Of a DNA stretch of 54,546 bases, positions 28,038 through 54,546 are shown piece after piece. The notes under the pieces were generated by a model. The model saw nothing but the letters and a program-made list of their open reading frames with translations. It was not told the DNA's origin and did no database searches. The position numbers and the translations under genes are program-made. The stretch's first letter is position 1, and the number at the start of each line of letters is the position of its first letter. The DNA lies in assembly GCA_012840135.1 (NCBI GenBank), contig DUMA01000026.1, positions 1 to 54,546 on the forward strand, read 5' to 3'. Source of the stretch: Thermoanaerobacterales bacterium (GTDB lineage Bacteria > Bacillota > Thermosediminibacteria > Thermosediminibacterales > Tepidanaerobacteraceae).

Positions 28038-28285
28038 CAAATATATGGGAAAAGGCGAGGAAGGGGCAGGAGGTATGAAACTCAACAGGGAGGAAGCGCC
28101 GCGACTGAGAGCGCTTTTTGGGCAATTTATACCGAAGAACATCCCGGAGCCGATGCCTCGAATTAAGTAGGGGTTTACGCAAAACGCGTTAGAGTTATCA
28201 AAGTGGGTTTTTACCAAGCAGGGTGGCACCGCGGAAAAACTTCCGTCCCTGATAAGACTATCAGCGGCGGGAGTTTTTATTATGT
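28038..28285 (+). promoter_or_regulatory. T-box leader (His) upstream of hisS-aspS
   Basis: The T-box core AGGGTGGCACCGCGG is at 28220-28234. It is followed by a long terminator hairpin, whose 3' arm ends GGCGGGAG plus a T run at about 28275-28279. Stem I lies upstream. The codon CAT at 28140-28142, right after GAA in the stem I 3' side, is the likely specifier for tRNA-His. Uncharged tRNA-His would favour the antiterminator. The remaining part of the 447-base gap to htrA holds the two divergent promoter regions. Confidence 0.9.
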
Positions 28286-31406: not shown

Positions 31407-31609
31407 TAGAAAAAGCAAAAACATCCCTGCTGTGTGCGTGTAAACTGGCATAGTAAAGAGCCAACACTATGACATAGGGAGTTCGGTCTCTAAATGTGGC
31501 ATATAAGCCCTCGCAGAAGGGAAATATAAAGCATTTAGGAGAACACCCACTTGGGTTGAGCCGGGTCTCTATTTACTGCCAGTTGCACGGCATGGTGGGG
31601 TATTTTTTT
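31407..31609 (+). ncRNA. ssrS: 6S RNA (ssrS, bsrA-like)
   Basis: The transcript can fold into one long rod. CATCCCTGCTGTG near 31422 pairs with the GGCATGGTGGGG stretch near 31590-31600. CTGGCATAGTAAAGAG (31445-31460) pairs with CTCTATTTACTGCCAG (31567-31582). An open centre with GTTCGGTCTC lies between. A T run at 31603-31609 ends it. Its length of about 200 and location between aspS and tcdA match Bacillus bsrA. 6S RNA binds sigma-A RNA polymerase as a promoter mimic. Confidence 0.85.
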
Positions 31610-38136: not shown

Positions 38137-38355
38137 TTAATAAGTTAACACGATGAAGAGGAAAATTAAAGTATGTTCCTGAAAGAGAGCCGGTGGGTGG
38201 TGCAAACCGGCAGGGTTACTTTATTTCCGCCTTGGAGTGGTTGACGATGAGTCAAACGGGTAAGGCCGTTATTTAAATGAGAGCTACTTTGGAAAAATCC
38301 AAATAGGGTGGCACCGCGGTAAAATCCGCCCCTTGCAGTGGGCGGATTTTTTTAT
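38137..38355 (+). promoter_or_regulatory. T-box leader, probably serine-specific
   Basis: The T-box core AGGGTGGCACCGCGG is at 38305-38319. The terminator AAATCCGCCC/GGGCGGATTT follows, with a T run at about 38346-38353. Stem I with GGTGCAAACC is near 38197-38206. A TCC at 38226-38228 is a candidate Ser specifier, but I could not settle the specifier loop by eye. The downstream serine-synthesis genes argue for tRNA-Ser. With its promoter it fills the 380-base gap. Confidence 0.87.
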
Positions 38356-49480: not shown

Positions 49481-49693
49481 GTGGAATTGTTAACAATAAA
49501 TAAAACATTACCCCGGCAAGTGCAGAAAAATCTTCAGGAACCGGTAGTTCTGGTGCATGAAATAAAAAAAATTGTCAGAGAATTAAAGGAGAAAAATCCC
49601 ATTCTCCGCAATTACAAACTGATGGATGTAGGCTTACCGGACAAAAATCAAAAGACTCCTCGCATGAATTTGTATTTTATTAAAAACCGGTAG
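49481..49693 (+). CDS. Small protein of unknown function
   Basis: 70 residues from GTG with GGGGGAT as SD. A basic, probably helical segment lies at about 20-42 (VLVHEIKKIVRELKEKN), with no membrane helix or cysteine. I do not recognise it. It lies 27 bases after yqeG and likely shares its transcript. A run of eight T just after its stop may help end transcription, but no good stem precedes it. Confidence 0.55.
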   Translation: MELLTINKTLPRQVQKNLQEPVVLVHEIKKIVRELKEKNPILRNYKLMDVGLPDKNQKTPRMNLYFIKNR

Positions 49694-49809
49694 GTTTGTT
49701 TTTTTTATGTTTTGGGTCGAAAACTGCAGGATTTTTAAAATTTCTGTTGAATTATATATTCAAACTAATGCACAGTCGAATTGGGTTTCTTTAAATTAAT
49801 ATATATTGA

Positions 49810-49916
49810 ATTTGGAAACTTTGTAGATCCAGATGATTTCCGGTTGAATCTGGGCACTTATACCGGATTGATGGAGTGGTGCAACCGGCTAGAAGATTTA
49901 GTCGGATTTTTATTTT
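49810..49916 (+). promoter_or_regulatory. Class II cyclic-di-GMP riboswitch with terminator, upstream of pilB
   Basis: Conserved parts come in the known order: GGAAAC (49814-49819), GGTTGAATCTGGGCACTT (49842-49859) and GGTGCAACCGG (49878-49888). GCACT (49854-49858) pairs with GGTGC (49878-49882). The pseudoknot pairs CCGGTT (49840-49845) with AACCGG (49883-49888). The terminator CCGGCTA (49885-49891)/TAGTCGG (49899-49905) with ATTTTTATTTT uses the same CCGG. Hence the bound, pseudoknotted form should block termination. The outer P1 stem is not clear by eye. Confidence 0.82.
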
Positions 49917-49933
49917 AAGGGGAAGGCTTGATT

Positions 49934-51622
49934 ATGCTTCTGAGGAACAGGAAAAAGTTAGGAGATATTCTGGTTGAATCGGGAAAGATAACAAAAGACC
50001 AGCTGGAATATGCGATAGAATTACAGAAAAAGAGAGGGGACAAGCTGGGCAAGATTCTGGTGGATGAAGGAATGGTATCTGAAGATGATATAATGGAAAT
50101 ACTTGAATACCAGCTCGGGGTTCCCCATGTAAAGCTAGACAAATATATTATTGATCCAGAAGTAGCCAGAACAGTGCCGGAAACCATTGCCAGGAAATAT
50201 AACATTATTCCAATAAAAAGAACTGACAAGCTGCTAACCGTGGCCATGAGCGATCCAATGAATATATTTGCCATTGATGAAATTAAACTCGCCTCAGGTC
50301 TGGAGGTTCAGCCAGCCATTGCATCTGAAGACGATATAAAAGCAGCCATAGAATTCTATTATGGAAAACAAACGGTAGAAAAAGCCATTGAAGATTTCAA
50401 AAAAGAATACAAGGTTGAGAATAATGCAACTCTGGAAAAAGAATTGATGGAGCAGGTAAACAATGCTCCGGTAGTGAGACTTGTCAATTCTATTATCGAG
50501 CAGGCTGTGGTCAGCAGAGCCAGCGATATACATATAGAGCCTGGTGAAAGAAAGCTCCGAATTAGATTCAGAATAGATGGGGAGCTTCATGAAATAATGA
50601 GCACTTCCATGCAGACTCACGGAGCCGTAGTGGCAAGAATCAAGATAATGAGCAACCTCAATATAGCGGAAAGAAGGCTTCCTCAAGATGGAAGAATAGA
50701 GATCGAGGTGGCAGGAAAAAGTCTGGATCTTAGAATTTCAGTCTTGCCTACGGTTTACGGGGAAAAGGTGGTCATCAGGATTTTAGACAGGAGCAGCTTC
50801 CTGATGTCCAAAAGACAACTGGGTTTTAACGAAGACAGCATTCAAAAATATGAACATCTTTTACACATGCCTTACGGGATCATTCTTGTTACGGGGCCTA
50901 CGGGCAGCGGAAAGACCACCACACTCTATGCTGCTTTGAGAGAACTGAACAGCCCTTCGGTGAATATCATCACCCTCGAAGATCCGGTAGAGTACAGGTT
51001 GGAAGGGATAAACCAAATACAAATAAACCCCAAGATCGGGCTGACCTTCGCCAGCGGTCTCAGGGCTATATTGAGACAGGATCCAAATATAATCATGGTT
51101 GGGGAAATAAGAGACGAAGAGACTGCAAACCTGGCAGTCAGAGCAGCCATAACAGGTCATCTTGTTTTGAGCACCCTTCATACGAACGATGCTGCAAGCT
51201 CCGTAGTTAGGCTTCTGGATATGGGCGTAGAACCTTATCTGGCATCTGCTGCCATGGCGGGTGTCATAGCCCAGCGGTTAGTCAGAAAAATATGTCCGGA
51301 ATGTAAAACGAAGTACCTGGCTTCCGAACAGGAACTTAAAATTCTCGGCTTTGAACCGGGAACTGAACTGGAGCTGTATAAAGGTAGAGGATGCAGCAGT
51401 TGCAATGGAACTGGATACTGGGGAAGAACCGCAGTGAATGAAATAATGTTAATAACCCGAAAACATCGTGAACTTATAACTCAGAGGCAATCATCGGACA
51501 AGCTTATAGAGGTTTCCAGGGAACAGGGGATGCAGACTTTAAAGGAAAACTGCATTGAACGGGTGATTGCCGGGATTACTACCCTGGAAGAAATGTTAAG
51601 GGTAGTTTATACTCAGGATTAA
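49934..51622 (+). CDS. pilB: Type IV pilus assembly ATPase PilB (GspE family)
   Basis: 562 residues from the ATG at 49934, eight bases behind AAGGGGAAGG; a TTG two codons earlier is too close. The N-terminal T2SSE_N domain (about 1-140) contains KLGDILVESGKI and GKILVDEG. The ATPase core has Walker A GPTGSGKTT (321-329), an Asp box and Walker B GEIRDEETA. A CPEC...CSSC zinc motif is present near 455-495. It drives pilus extension from the cytoplasm. First gene of the c-di-GMP-controlled operon. Confidence 0.95.
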   Translation: MLLRNRKKLGDILVESGKITKDQLEYAIELQKKRGDKLGKILVDEGMVSEDDIMEILEYQLGVPHVKLDKYIIDPEVARTVPETIARKYNIIPIKRTDKLLTVAMSDPMNIFAIDEIKLASGLEVQPAIASEDDIKAAIEFYYGKQTVEKAIEDFKKEYKVENNATLEKELMEQVNNAPVVRLVNSIIEQAVVSRASDIHIEPGERKLRIRFRIDGELHEIMSTSMQTHGAVVARIKIMSNLNIAERRLPQDGRIEIEVAGKSLDLRISVLPTVYGEKVVIRILDRSSFLMSKRQLGFNEDSIQKYEHLLHMPYGIILVTGPTGSGKTTTLYAALRELNSPSVNIITLEDPVEYRLEGINQIQINPKIGLTFASGLRAILRQDPNIIMVGEIRDEETANLAVRAAITGHLVLSTLHTNDAASSVVRLLDMGVEPYLASAAMAGVIAQRLVRKICPECKTKYLASEQELKILGFEPGTELELYKGRGCSSCNGTGYWGRTAVNEIMLITRKHRELITQRQSSDKLIEVSREQGMQTLKENCIERVIAGITTLEEMLRVVYTQD

Positions 51623-51634
51623 GGGGAGAATAGC

Positions 51635-52690
51635 TTGAATTTTAGAGAAATATTGGACTTAGCAACTAAAAAATCCGCATCGGACATACACATCACCGTG
51701 GGCGTACCTCCAACCCTCAGAATAAACGGGAGTTTGATAGCTATAAACCAGGAAAAATTAACTCCGGAAGACACCGCACAAATAGTGGAAGAAATTCTGG
51801 GGGAAGAACAGATGGAAAGACTTAAAAAACATGGTGAGGTTGACCTTTCTTATTCTATTAAGGGCCTGGGGAGGTTCCGCGTCAATGTGTACCGACAGAG
51901 GGGAAGTTATGGCCTTGCTATGAGATTGGTAGCCCTCAACATACCCACCATTGAGCAGCTCGGCCTTCCACCGGTGGTAAAGGAACTATCAAGAAAGAGC
52001 AGGGGTCTCGTGCTGGTCACGGGTCCCACGGGGAGCGGCAAGTCTACCACCCTGGCGGCTATGATAGATTTGATAAACAGTGAAAGAAACTGCCATATCA
52101 TCACATTGGAGGACCCCATCGAGTACCTCCACAGACACAAAAAAAGCATAGTCAATCAGCGGGAGATAGGCTATGACTCCGCAAGTTTTGCATCGGCATT
52201 GAGAGCGGCGCTCCGCCAGGACCCGGATGTAATACTGGTGGGGGAGATGAGGGACCTGGAAACCATATCCATTGCAATCACTGCTGCGGAGACGGGACAT
52301 CTAGTACTTTCAACCCTTCACACCATCGGGGCGGACAAAACTATAGACAGGATCATTGATGTGTTTCCTCCTTACCAGCAGCAGCAAATAAAGATGCAGC
52401 TTTCTACGGTGCTCCAGGGCGTTATTTCTCAGAACCTGATACCTAGAAAGGATGGGATGGGCAGGGTCGCTGCTGTTGAAGTCATGATCGCTACGCCGGC
52501 CATAAGAAATCTCATAAGGGAAGGGAAATCTCATCAAATAATAACTTCGATGCAAACCGGCGGGAAATACGGCATGCAGACCATGGATTATTCCCTGGCG
52601 CAACTTTACAGGCAGGGAGTTATATCTTACGAAAATGCCCTTTTATACTGCAGCAGCGAAGAAGCCCTGCTGAGATTTATTGGAAATTAA
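51635..52690 (+). CDS. pilT: Type IV pilus retraction ATPase PilT
   Basis: 351 residues from TTG behind GGGGAGAA. Family start (REILDLATKKSASDIHITVGVPPTLRINGSL), Walker A GPTGSGKST (130-138), Asp box, Walker B GEMRDLETI, and the C-terminal AIRNLIREGKSHQI that is diagnostic for PilT. It powers pilus retraction, and so twitching. It is 12 bases after pilB. Confidence 0.95.
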   Translation: MNFREILDLATKKSASDIHITVGVPPTLRINGSLIAINQEKLTPEDTAQIVEEILGEEQMERLKKHGEVDLSYSIKGLGRFRVNVYRQRGSYGLAMRLVALNIPTIEQLGLPPVVKELSRKSRGLVLVTGPTGSGKSTTLAAMIDLINSERNCHIITLEDPIEYLHRHKKSIVNQREIGYDSASFASALRAALRQDPDVILVGEMRDLETISIAITAAETGHLVLSTLHTIGADKTIDRIIDVFPPYQQQQIKMQLSTVLQGVISQNLIPRKDGMGRVAAVEVMIATPAIRNLIREGKSHQIITSMQTGGKYGMQTMDYSLAQLYRQGVISYENALLYCSSEEALLRFIGN

Positions 52691-52717: not shown

Positions 52718-53932
52718 ATGCCCACATATCAGTACATTGCCAGAAGCTGTTCCGGGGAAGAAATAAAAGGCTTATATGAGGCGCCGGACAGAGTGGCGGT
52801 TATTTACATGCTCAGGGAAAAAAACTGTTTTCCCGTTGATATAAAGGAAAATAAAAAGGTATCCGATAGTGTTTCTTTAAAGAGATTATTCTGCAGAGTT
52901 ACTTCCAAAGACCTGTCGGTATTTTGCCGTCAGTTTTCTACGTTAGTAAACGCTGGAGTCCCCATACTTGCAAGTCTAGATATTCTCAGAAAGCAGACCG
53001 AGAATACCAGGCTGAGAGAAACGTTAGATATCCTTTTTGAAGAAGTCCAGAAAGGCAAAAACCTGTCGCAGGTCATGGGATTATATAAAGGCATTTTCCC
53101 TGAGCTCCTGGTAAACATGGTGGAAGCCGGGGAAATAAGCGGAACTCTCGACAAAGTCATGGAAAGAATGGCCATACATTATGAAAAGGAATATAAACTG
53201 AGCCAGAAGGTAAAAAATGCATTAGTGTATCCCGCAATTGTTGCCGTGGTGGCAGTAGCTGTAGTAATATTTCTTGTAACAGTCGTTCTTCCAACTTTCG
53301 CATCCATGTTCCAGCAGATGGGAGCTGTATTGCCGCTTTCCACAAGGATTCTAATGGCTGCAAGCAGTATTATAAAACACAACTGGGTATTGCTGCTTGT
53401 TTTGTCTGCCTTTTCGGTGTTGCTGGTAAGAATTTATGCTTCTACCGAGAGAGGTAACCACTTTTTTGATGACATGAAATTGAAATTACCCGTAATAGGA
53501 ATAGTTAACAAAAAGGTCATCACAGCCCGGTTTGCCCGAACCCTTGGCGCCCTGCTGGCCAGCGGCATCCCTGTGCTTCAGGGCATAGAGATCACCAAAA
53601 AAGTTGTCGGAAATGCTGTTATACAAAAAAACCTTTCAGGGGTGGAAGAAGGTATAAAAAAAGGAAAGGGGCTTTCTGAACCTTTAAAAACCATAGATGC
53701 CTTTCCGCCGATGCTGATACATATGGCAAAAATAGGCGAAGATACCGGTACCCTCGATTATATGCTGACGAAGACCGCAGATTTTTATGATGACGAGGTG
53801 GAAAGCGCCGTTACCAGAATGACAACATTGCTGGAACCGGCTATAATTATATGTATGGCGGTGGTGGTGGGCCTTATAGTGGTATCCATTGTATTGCCCA
53901 TGTTTCAACTAATGACAAATATTCAGTTCTAA
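52718..53932 (+). CDS. pilC: Type IV pilus inner-membrane platform protein PilC (GspF family)
   Basis: 404 residues with AGAGGTG as SD. Two homologous T2SSF domains (about 68-190 and 270-392) each open with a FCRQFSTLVNAGVPILASL-like string (the second is FARTLGALLASGIPVLQGI). Three membrane helices lie near 170, 215 and 380. It couples the PilB/PilT motors to pilin assembly. Confidence 0.95.
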   Translation: MPTYQYIARSCSGEEIKGLYEAPDRVAVIYMLREKNCFPVDIKENKKVSDSVSLKRLFCRVTSKDLSVFCRQFSTLVNAGVPILASLDILRKQTENTRLRETLDILFEEVQKGKNLSQVMGLYKGIFPELLVNMVEAGEISGTLDKVMERMAIHYEKEYKLSQKVKNALVYPAIVAVVAVAVVIFLVTVVLPTFASMFQQMGAVLPLSTRILMAASSIIKHNWVLLLVLSAFSVLLVRIYASTERGNHFFDDMKLKLPVIGIVNKKVITARFARTLGALLASGIPVLQGIEITKKVVGNAVIQKNLSGVEEGIKKGKGLSEPLKTIDAFPPMLIHMAKIGEDTGTLDYMLTKTADFYDDEVESAVTRMTTLLEPAIIICMAVVVGLIVVSIVLPMFQLMTNIQF

Positions 53933-53994: not shown

Positions 53995-54399
53995 ATGATG
54001 ATTAAAATGGTCATGGCATTTAAAAGAATAGGAAAAGACAAAAGGGGTTTTACTTTGGTGGAACTCATGGCGGTGCTTGCGGTGCTGGCCATCATTGCAG
54101 CCATTGCCGTGCCGAGGTTTACAGGTACCATAAATACAGCAAAAGCGAATGCTGACAAGGCTTCAGCACAGATAATCGCCAGAGCAGCGGAACAGAAATG
54201 GCTGGATGATCAGGAAAGTACACAAAAAACTTATTTAGCAAGTGATTTAGCCTCTGCTGGATATTTAAAAGAAACACCTAAAGTACAGGCAAAATCTCAA
54301 TATGATGATTATAGAGCAACAGTTGACGCGACTGGAAAATGCGAAAAGGTTGTTTATTCTGATGGTACAAATGATGATTCAGTTGATTTGCTGGATTAA
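53995..54399 (+). CDS. Type IV pilin (PilA-like major or minor prepilin)
   Basis: 134 residues, ATG behind GGGGGTG; a second ATG is the next codon. A basic leader ends at KRG (G18), then FTLVELMAVLAVLAIIAAIAVP is the mature N-terminal helix with conserved Glu at +5 (E23). The C-terminal part is short, polar and has one cysteine (C117). It needs a prepilin peptidase that is not in the window. A hairpin GAAGG/CCTTC (53945-53958) lies in the gap after pilC. Confidence 0.9.
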   Translation: MMIKMVMAFKRIGKDKRGFTLVELMAVLAVLAIIAAIAVPRFTGTINTAKANADKASAQIIARAAEQKWLDDQESTQKTYLASDLASAGYLKETPKVQAKSQYDDYRATVDATGKCEKVVYSDGTNDDSVDLLD

Positions 54400-54445
54400 T
54401 ATAAATTATGCTTATCAATTTTTAGTTAATAAGCGCTTGGTTTAA

Positions 54446-54546
54446 ACCCACGGGCTTTCAGCCCGTAAATCCTTTCAGGACTTGCAGATACTTCAGTATC
54501 ATCTATATAATCTGTACCAGGGGTGATACTGAATGGGAGATTTAAA
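54446..54546 (+). mobile_element. Possible left end and tnpA start of an IS200/IS605-like element (cut by the window)
   Basis: ACGGGC (54450-54455) and GCCCGT (54461-54466) form a hairpin without a T run, as in the subterminal hairpins of IS200/IS605 ends. CAGTATCA (54494-54501) pairs with TGATACTG (54524-54531). An ATG at 54533 with AGGGGTGAT ahead opens MGDL, as many IS200 TnpA proteins start. Only five codons are visible, so this is tentative. Confidence 0.4.

Follow-up and report, generated by a model that had tools for sequence, protein, structure and literature searches.

A type IV pilus operon of a Thermoanaerobacterales bacterium (GCA_012840135.1) is very probably controlled by a class II cyclic di-GMP (c-di-GMP) riboswitch that acts through antitermination, with transcription switched on by the ligand. 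The window analysed, meaning the whole stretch of 54,546 nucleotides of contig DUMA01000026.1, was searched against 4227 Rfam families, and the c-di-GMP-II model RF01786 matched at 49816–49899 on the forward strand (54.4 bits, E-value 2.6e-9), with all 84 model positions (1–84) covered. The gathering cut-off of the model is 53.5 bits, which the aptamer exceeds by just 0.9 bit. In a covariance search of the whole genome, three class II matches had E <1e-5, the same aptamer being the best of them (E = 3.6e-11), and the cut-off was not attained by any control genome. A first-pass annotation, made by reading the letters of this DNA, had proposed an element of this class in front of the pilus genes and suggested the covariance search as a check; the full-length match agrees with that assignment. 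The low score has several sources in the model alignment: P2 reads CCA/TGG instead of GGC/GCC, one U is inserted, the P3 loop is one base shorter and mismatches occur in P1 as well as at the P3 ends. The earlier suggestion of a divergent variant is unnecessary, as the pilB-leader aptamer is a low-scoring yet complete member of RF01786, predicted to bind the ligand. While a score so near the threshold could point to a chance resemblance to the family, the probability of this is practically nil: the E-value is low, the control genomes all fall under the cut-off and the position before pilB is repeated in other families, so that the covariance model and the conservation already refute it. On sequence grounds, the leader RNA of the pilus operon is a genuine class II c-di-GMP riboswitch.

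The helices and the pseudoknot were placed from the RF01786 alignment together with base-pairing checks. The P1 5′ strand (49816–49826) pairs with its partner (49889–49899) at 9 of 11 positions, at odds with the earlier impression of a weak P1, and is followed by the conserved segment GATCCAGATGA (49826–49836, forward strand). P2 is formed by CCA (49829–49831) and TGG (49872–49874), with all three positions paired, and P3 by 49839–49844 and 49862–49867, with 6 of the 8 positions of the helix paired. The conserved loop CTGGGCACTT (49850–49859, forward strand) includes the pseudoknot strand GCAC of the P3 loop (49854–49857), which forms four Watson–Crick pairs with GTGC (49879–49882), plus T49858–G49878. 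The conserved 3′ core of the family, GUGCAACCG, is present, and the corresponding stretch GTGCAACCGG (49879–49888) consists of the second pseudoknot strand and AACCGG. Two of the three motifs named at first pass thus stand, CTGGGCACTT as the loop and GTGCAACCGG as the 3′ core. The third, GGAAAC (49814–49819), was rejected as a family motif, as only part of it falls inside the aptamer, in the P1 5′ strand.

The pseudoknot had originally been placed at 49840–49845/49883–49888. These two stretches are complementary, but the model alignment assigns 49840–49844 to the 5′ arm of P3, and the complementarity stems from the palindrome CCGG, which is present in each arm of P3 as well as in the core. This pairing is kept only in the genus of the window, with 3–5 of the 6 pairs in eight other pilB leaders, and was rejected. 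The canonical pseudoknot was evaluated in 119 Bacillota class II aptamers that were inspected with their downstream DNA (110 from a phylum sample and 9 from the order); it is complementary in 110 of the 119, compared with a mean of 29.5 and a maximum of 41 for shuffled partners, and occurs as GCAC/GTGC, TCAC/GTGA, GCGC/GCGC, ACGC/GCGT, ACAC/GTGT, GCAT/ATGC and other sequence types. The non-consensus sequence in P2 and the adjoining internal loop could indicate a class II scaffold with altered specificity for another cyclic dinucleotide, which we consider exceedingly unlikely given that every conserved 3′ core position matches the consensus and that eight GGDEF domains are encoded in the genome. 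We know of no class II variant with an altered ligand.

The aptamer shares bases with a terminator hairpin, CCGGCTAGA-AGA-TTTAGTCGG (49885–49905, forward strand; approximately −9 to −10 kcal/mol alone), which heads the list of terminator-like sites in the leader region. Its stem (49885–49891/49899–49905, extendable to 49893/49897) and the U-rich tract that follows it, read from the sequence as ATTTTTATTTT (49906–49916, forward strand), are present as annotated at first pass. The 5′ arm contains the core CCGG (49885–49888) and then 49889–49893, the five leading bases of the P1 3′ strand, whose last three (49897–49899) fall in the 3′ arm. Because the terminator uses P1 3′-strand bases together with the core CCGG, P1 and the terminator are mutually exclusive. 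The exclusion of aptamer and terminator proposed earlier thus holds through the P1 3′ strand (49889–49899) and CCGG (49885–49888), and not through the pseudoknot to which it had been attributed. The minimum free energy fold of 49816–49916 contains the terminator, at −26.2 kcal/mol versus −9.1 kcal/mol for P1, P2 and P3 combined, in an energy model that leaves both the pseudoknot and the ligand outside. Since the lowest-energy ligand-free fold holds the terminator, termination is the predicted default and ligand is predicted to turn the operon ON. The terminator duplex alone is unexceptional when compared with shuffled sequences (p 0.065), and the hairpin is only moderately stable. No separate anti-terminator is present between aptamer and terminator.

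At low c-di-GMP, the nascent leader would fold into the hairpin at 49885–49905 and RNA polymerase would halt at the U tract (49906–49916), upstream of pilB. At high c-di-GMP, P1, P2, P3 and the pseudoknot (49854–49857/49879–49882) would be clamped by the ligand, the P1 3′ strand and the CCGG core would be withheld from the terminator and, without it, transcription would continue into pilB-pilT-pilC-pilA. The switch therefore most likely allows transcription of the pilus genes only at high signal, a reading we also favour because the class II switches tested in Clostridioides difficile agree with it (PMC6366702, PMC11477304). An OFF switch or translational control, for example by hiding the ribosome-binding site, would have a possible point of action in the Shine–Dalgarno-like AAGGGGAAGG (49917–49926, forward strand; assigned from its spacing to ATG 49934), which lies just ~12 nt past the terminator hairpin, where folding could affect initiation. 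We judge this very unlikely, as the sole stable downstream hairpin borrows aptamer bases, ends in a U tract and excludes the Shine–Dalgarno-like site, as an OFF switch requires an anti-terminator between aptamer and terminator where there is none, and as the class II switches reported from C. difficile, four in number, are ON switches (PMC6366702). For the preferred ON switch, the aptamer, the terminator, the overlap of both and the gene order can be read directly from the sequence, while the direction of switching, the identity of the ligand and the pilus phenotype are predictions from the RNA family and the architecture.

The riboswitch lies directly upstream of pilB-pilT-pilC-pilA, with a gap of ~30 nt between aptamer and pilB, and domain matches confirm the gene assignments of the first-pass annotation. 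On the forward strand, these genes encode the assembly ATPase PilB (49934–51622; PF00437, the T2SSE domain, and PF05157, with an N-terminal MshEN-type tandem motif), the retraction ATPase PilT (51635–52690; PF00437), the platform protein PilC (52718–53932; PF00482 in two stretches) and the type IV pilin PilA (53995–54399; PF07963 N-methylation motif). The mechanically called pilB open reading frame (ORF) begins at TTG 49928; the pilB of a congeneric genome begins at ATG, and the likely start here is ATG 49934, downstream of AAGGGGAAGG. Further upstream, an intrinsic-terminator-like hairpin (AAACC-GGTA-GGTTT plus a T run; 49684–49706, forward strand) at the end of a 70-codon ORF would set the pilus operon apart from the preceding sigma factor and HAD genes, and counterpart hairpins occupy the corresponding site of the congener (AGCC-GTTA-GGCT plus T7) and in a Tepidanaerobacteraceae metagenome-assembled genome (MAG; L015). 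As the hairpin ends the upstream gene, the operon is expected to have its own promoter within 49707–49815, where a consensus scan of the forward strand found none. Elsewhere in the window, the Rfam search also reported T-box leaders at two sites and one 6S RNA gene (28049–28253, 38144–38336 and 31421–31605).

The congener (G001, locus L162) carries the same riboswitch followed by pilB, pilT, pilC, pilA, pilD, several pilin-like genes, pilM, pilN and pilO, with the genes from pilD onward named by eye from translated ORFs, and read-through there would extend past pilA into pilD, the pilin-like genes and pilM-N-O. In the genome of the window, the contig (C24) terminates at 54546, past pilA, and pilD is found at the very start of another contig (C18). 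Sequence at both of these contig ends is missing from the 100-bp pilA–pilD gap of the congener; the extra sequence, at window positions 54400–54546 and at 1–129 of locus L163, is rich in hairpins. A repeat or insertion element probably lies between pilA and pilD in the strain of the window, so that the predicted read-through into pilD and beyond applies to the gene order of the congener.

PilB identity between the window and the congener is 93–94%. In the leader, 57 of 62 aptamer core positions are identical, as are 10 of 11 in the P1 3′ strand and 16 of 17 in the terminator 3′ arm and T tract, but only 6 of 11 in the P1 5′ strand. One position, a G–G mismatch in the aptamer of the window, is A–T in the congener, and the aptamer-overlapping terminator is present there too. 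These comparisons bear on the possibility that the aptamer has decayed into a relic incapable of binding c-di-GMP, leaving a constitutive attenuator, as might be read from the low score of 54.4, the two P1 mismatches and the lack of the element upstream of pilB in most genomes of the order with a PilB match (19 of 21). There is very little chance of this, since the core GTGCAACCGG, the pseudoknot, P2 and P3 are intact, the congener retains the core at those 57 positions and the diverged P1 5′ strand still pairs. A core that is kept while the P1 5′ strand diverges and yet still pairs is, in this comparison of two genomes, the pattern of purifying selection and not of decay.

PilB was matched (E ≤ 1e-100) in 21 of the 22 genomes of the order, and a class II aptamer precedes pilB in only two of them, both belonging to the genus of the window. 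The genomes without a class II match before pilB include the nearest relative outside the genus (G007) and the L015 MAG, whose PilB is 79% identical. Across the phylum sample, class II matches were found in 107 of 398 genomes, and 10 of the 119 inspected aptamers lie 29–125 nt upstream of a PilB match: those of the window, of the congener and of eight genomes from other families (L070, L073, L085, L089, L115, L132, L133 and L134), in which the RF01786 match is 32–125 nt upstream of pilB. In these pilB-first loci, pilT and pilC follow wherever the sequence extends far enough, and a pilin-like gene is found downstream of two more of the 119 aptamers. A clear terminator hairpin beginning in the ACCG core is present in 8 of the 10 pilB-first leaders (6 of 8 outside the genus), with L073 and L089 presenting a weak, short overlapping hairpin with an imperfect T tract. 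Under a rough assumption of 2 in 2500 genes, ~0.1 pilB-adjacent aptamers would be expected by chance among the 119, against 10 observed, and by this rough estimate the association of class II aptamers with pilB is far above chance.

A class II switch directly before pilB is, judging from these matches, a recurrent arrangement in Bacillota of which the window is one member. The other pilB-first loci resemble it in aptamer family, in position before pilB, in the pilT and pilC genes that follow and in the aptamer-overlapping hairpin, but their terminators are mostly longer and more stable, and the model-aligned P1 ends are poorly paired in L132 and L133, unlike in the window. The covariance model, the overlap of terminator and P1, the conservation in the congener and these eight genomes together support the first-pass annotation in its aptamer class, its type IV pilus target and its ligand-ON prediction. 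A literature search that most subscription papers lay beyond returned no pilB-first class II switch outside C. difficile, and priority is not claimed. These loci provide a comparative set for ON-switch design and for joint RNA- and protein-level control by c-di-GMP.

The closest known system is Cdi-2-4 of C. difficile, a class II ON switch preceding pilA1 and the pilus cluster CD3513-03 (PMC6366702, PMC6200980, PMC11477304), with read-through from the class II switch into the pilB operon (PMC6366702). All four class II switches of this organism are reported to be ON, one of them at the pilus locus (PMC6366702, PMC11477304). Cdi-2-4 and the switch described here have in common the aptamer class, a type IV pilus target and a terminator-based transcriptional ON logic, here predicted. 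They differ in gene order, with pilA1 first and the pilB operon reached by read-through in C. difficile, and pilB first and pilA fourth in the window. The contrast originally drawn, in which only the window had its whole motor operon behind the switch, was overstated, because in C. difficile, too, a complete pilus cluster lies behind the switch (CD3513-03, PMC11477304). The pilB-leader switch is therefore a further example of an already known type of control. With it, riboswitch control of type IV pili, demonstrated for the pilus locus of C. difficile, extends to a further lineage of anaerobes. In a sister family of the same order, a riboswitch of the unrelated class I c-di-GMP type is found within the pil operons (L032/L166, L034, L035, L031, L045 and L047), ~1.07 kb past pilB and not before it. 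It spans 4242–4326 in L032 and ~4240–4324 in L166, from the pilT stop to before pilC, and could separate the control of pilC-pilA from that of the motor genes.

The signal itself appears to be available, as the genome encodes, besides its GGDEF domains (8), one EAL domain, and its riboswitches include 10 of class I above the cut-off plus the 2 further class II matches; this content indicates that it makes and senses c-di-GMP. PilB may be an additional receptor. Binding of c-di-GMP by MshEN domains has been described for two 24-residue motifs with a 5-residue spacer (PMC5013675), and MshEN-type binding is known for PilB, MshE, PilF and PilB2 (PMC5013675, PMC11656802). A scan for two copies of RLGxxhhxxGhhxxxxLxxxLxxQ with a 5-residue spacer identified KLGDILVESGKITKDQLEYAIELQ-KKRGD-KLGKILVDEGMVSEDDIMEILEYQ in PilB, with the Pfam MshEN match (PF05157) covering residues 63–149. 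Each motif has K in place of R (position 1) and I for L at one key position, and the first motif also has K at a hydrophobic position. With these substitutions, PilB of the window resembles the MshEN system in its two motifs and spacer; control in that system is exerted on the protein and not on the RNA. A second layer of control through c-di-GMP binding by the PilB MshEN domain is plausible. More tentatively, and with somewhat less than even confidence, we suggest that two-tier control is recurrent, with the class II switch gating transcription of the entire pilus operon and PilB, its first protein product, itself acting as a c-di-GMP receptor, and that lineages of one order have attached unrelated riboswitch classes at different points of the operon, class II before pilB and class I between pilT and pilC. 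Pili under such two-tier control would require the signal both while the operon is being transcribed and later on.

Other c-di-GMP riboswitch loci were noted among the genomes compared. In the genome of the window, a locus on the reverse strand of contig C11 (24859–26257; L014 9860–11257) carries a tandem pair of c-di-GMP-I-GGC aptamers, followed by a transglutaminase-like ORF. Two class II copies come next, of which the first is degenerate at 35.6 bits, and behind them lie a signal-peptidase-like gene and genes resembling TasA/camelysin-type matrix proteins (protein names assigned by eye). This order of aptamers is repeated in G007 (L018/L021), a further locus being listed in the congener (L022), and such loci suggest that c-di-GMP may control matrix fibres as well. 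The congener also has a class II aptamer of 65.3 bits (C1, 3220578–3220661, reverse strand; L019) before a gene for a putative secreted protein of 296 amino acids, and none of the class II matches in the genome of the window is an evident counterpart of it. In G014, a class II-like match of 42.8 bits (C3, 50505–50588, reverse strand; L020) precedes a subtilisin-like protease gene and has a pseudoknot, GCTC/GAGC, that is unusual among the compared aptamers.
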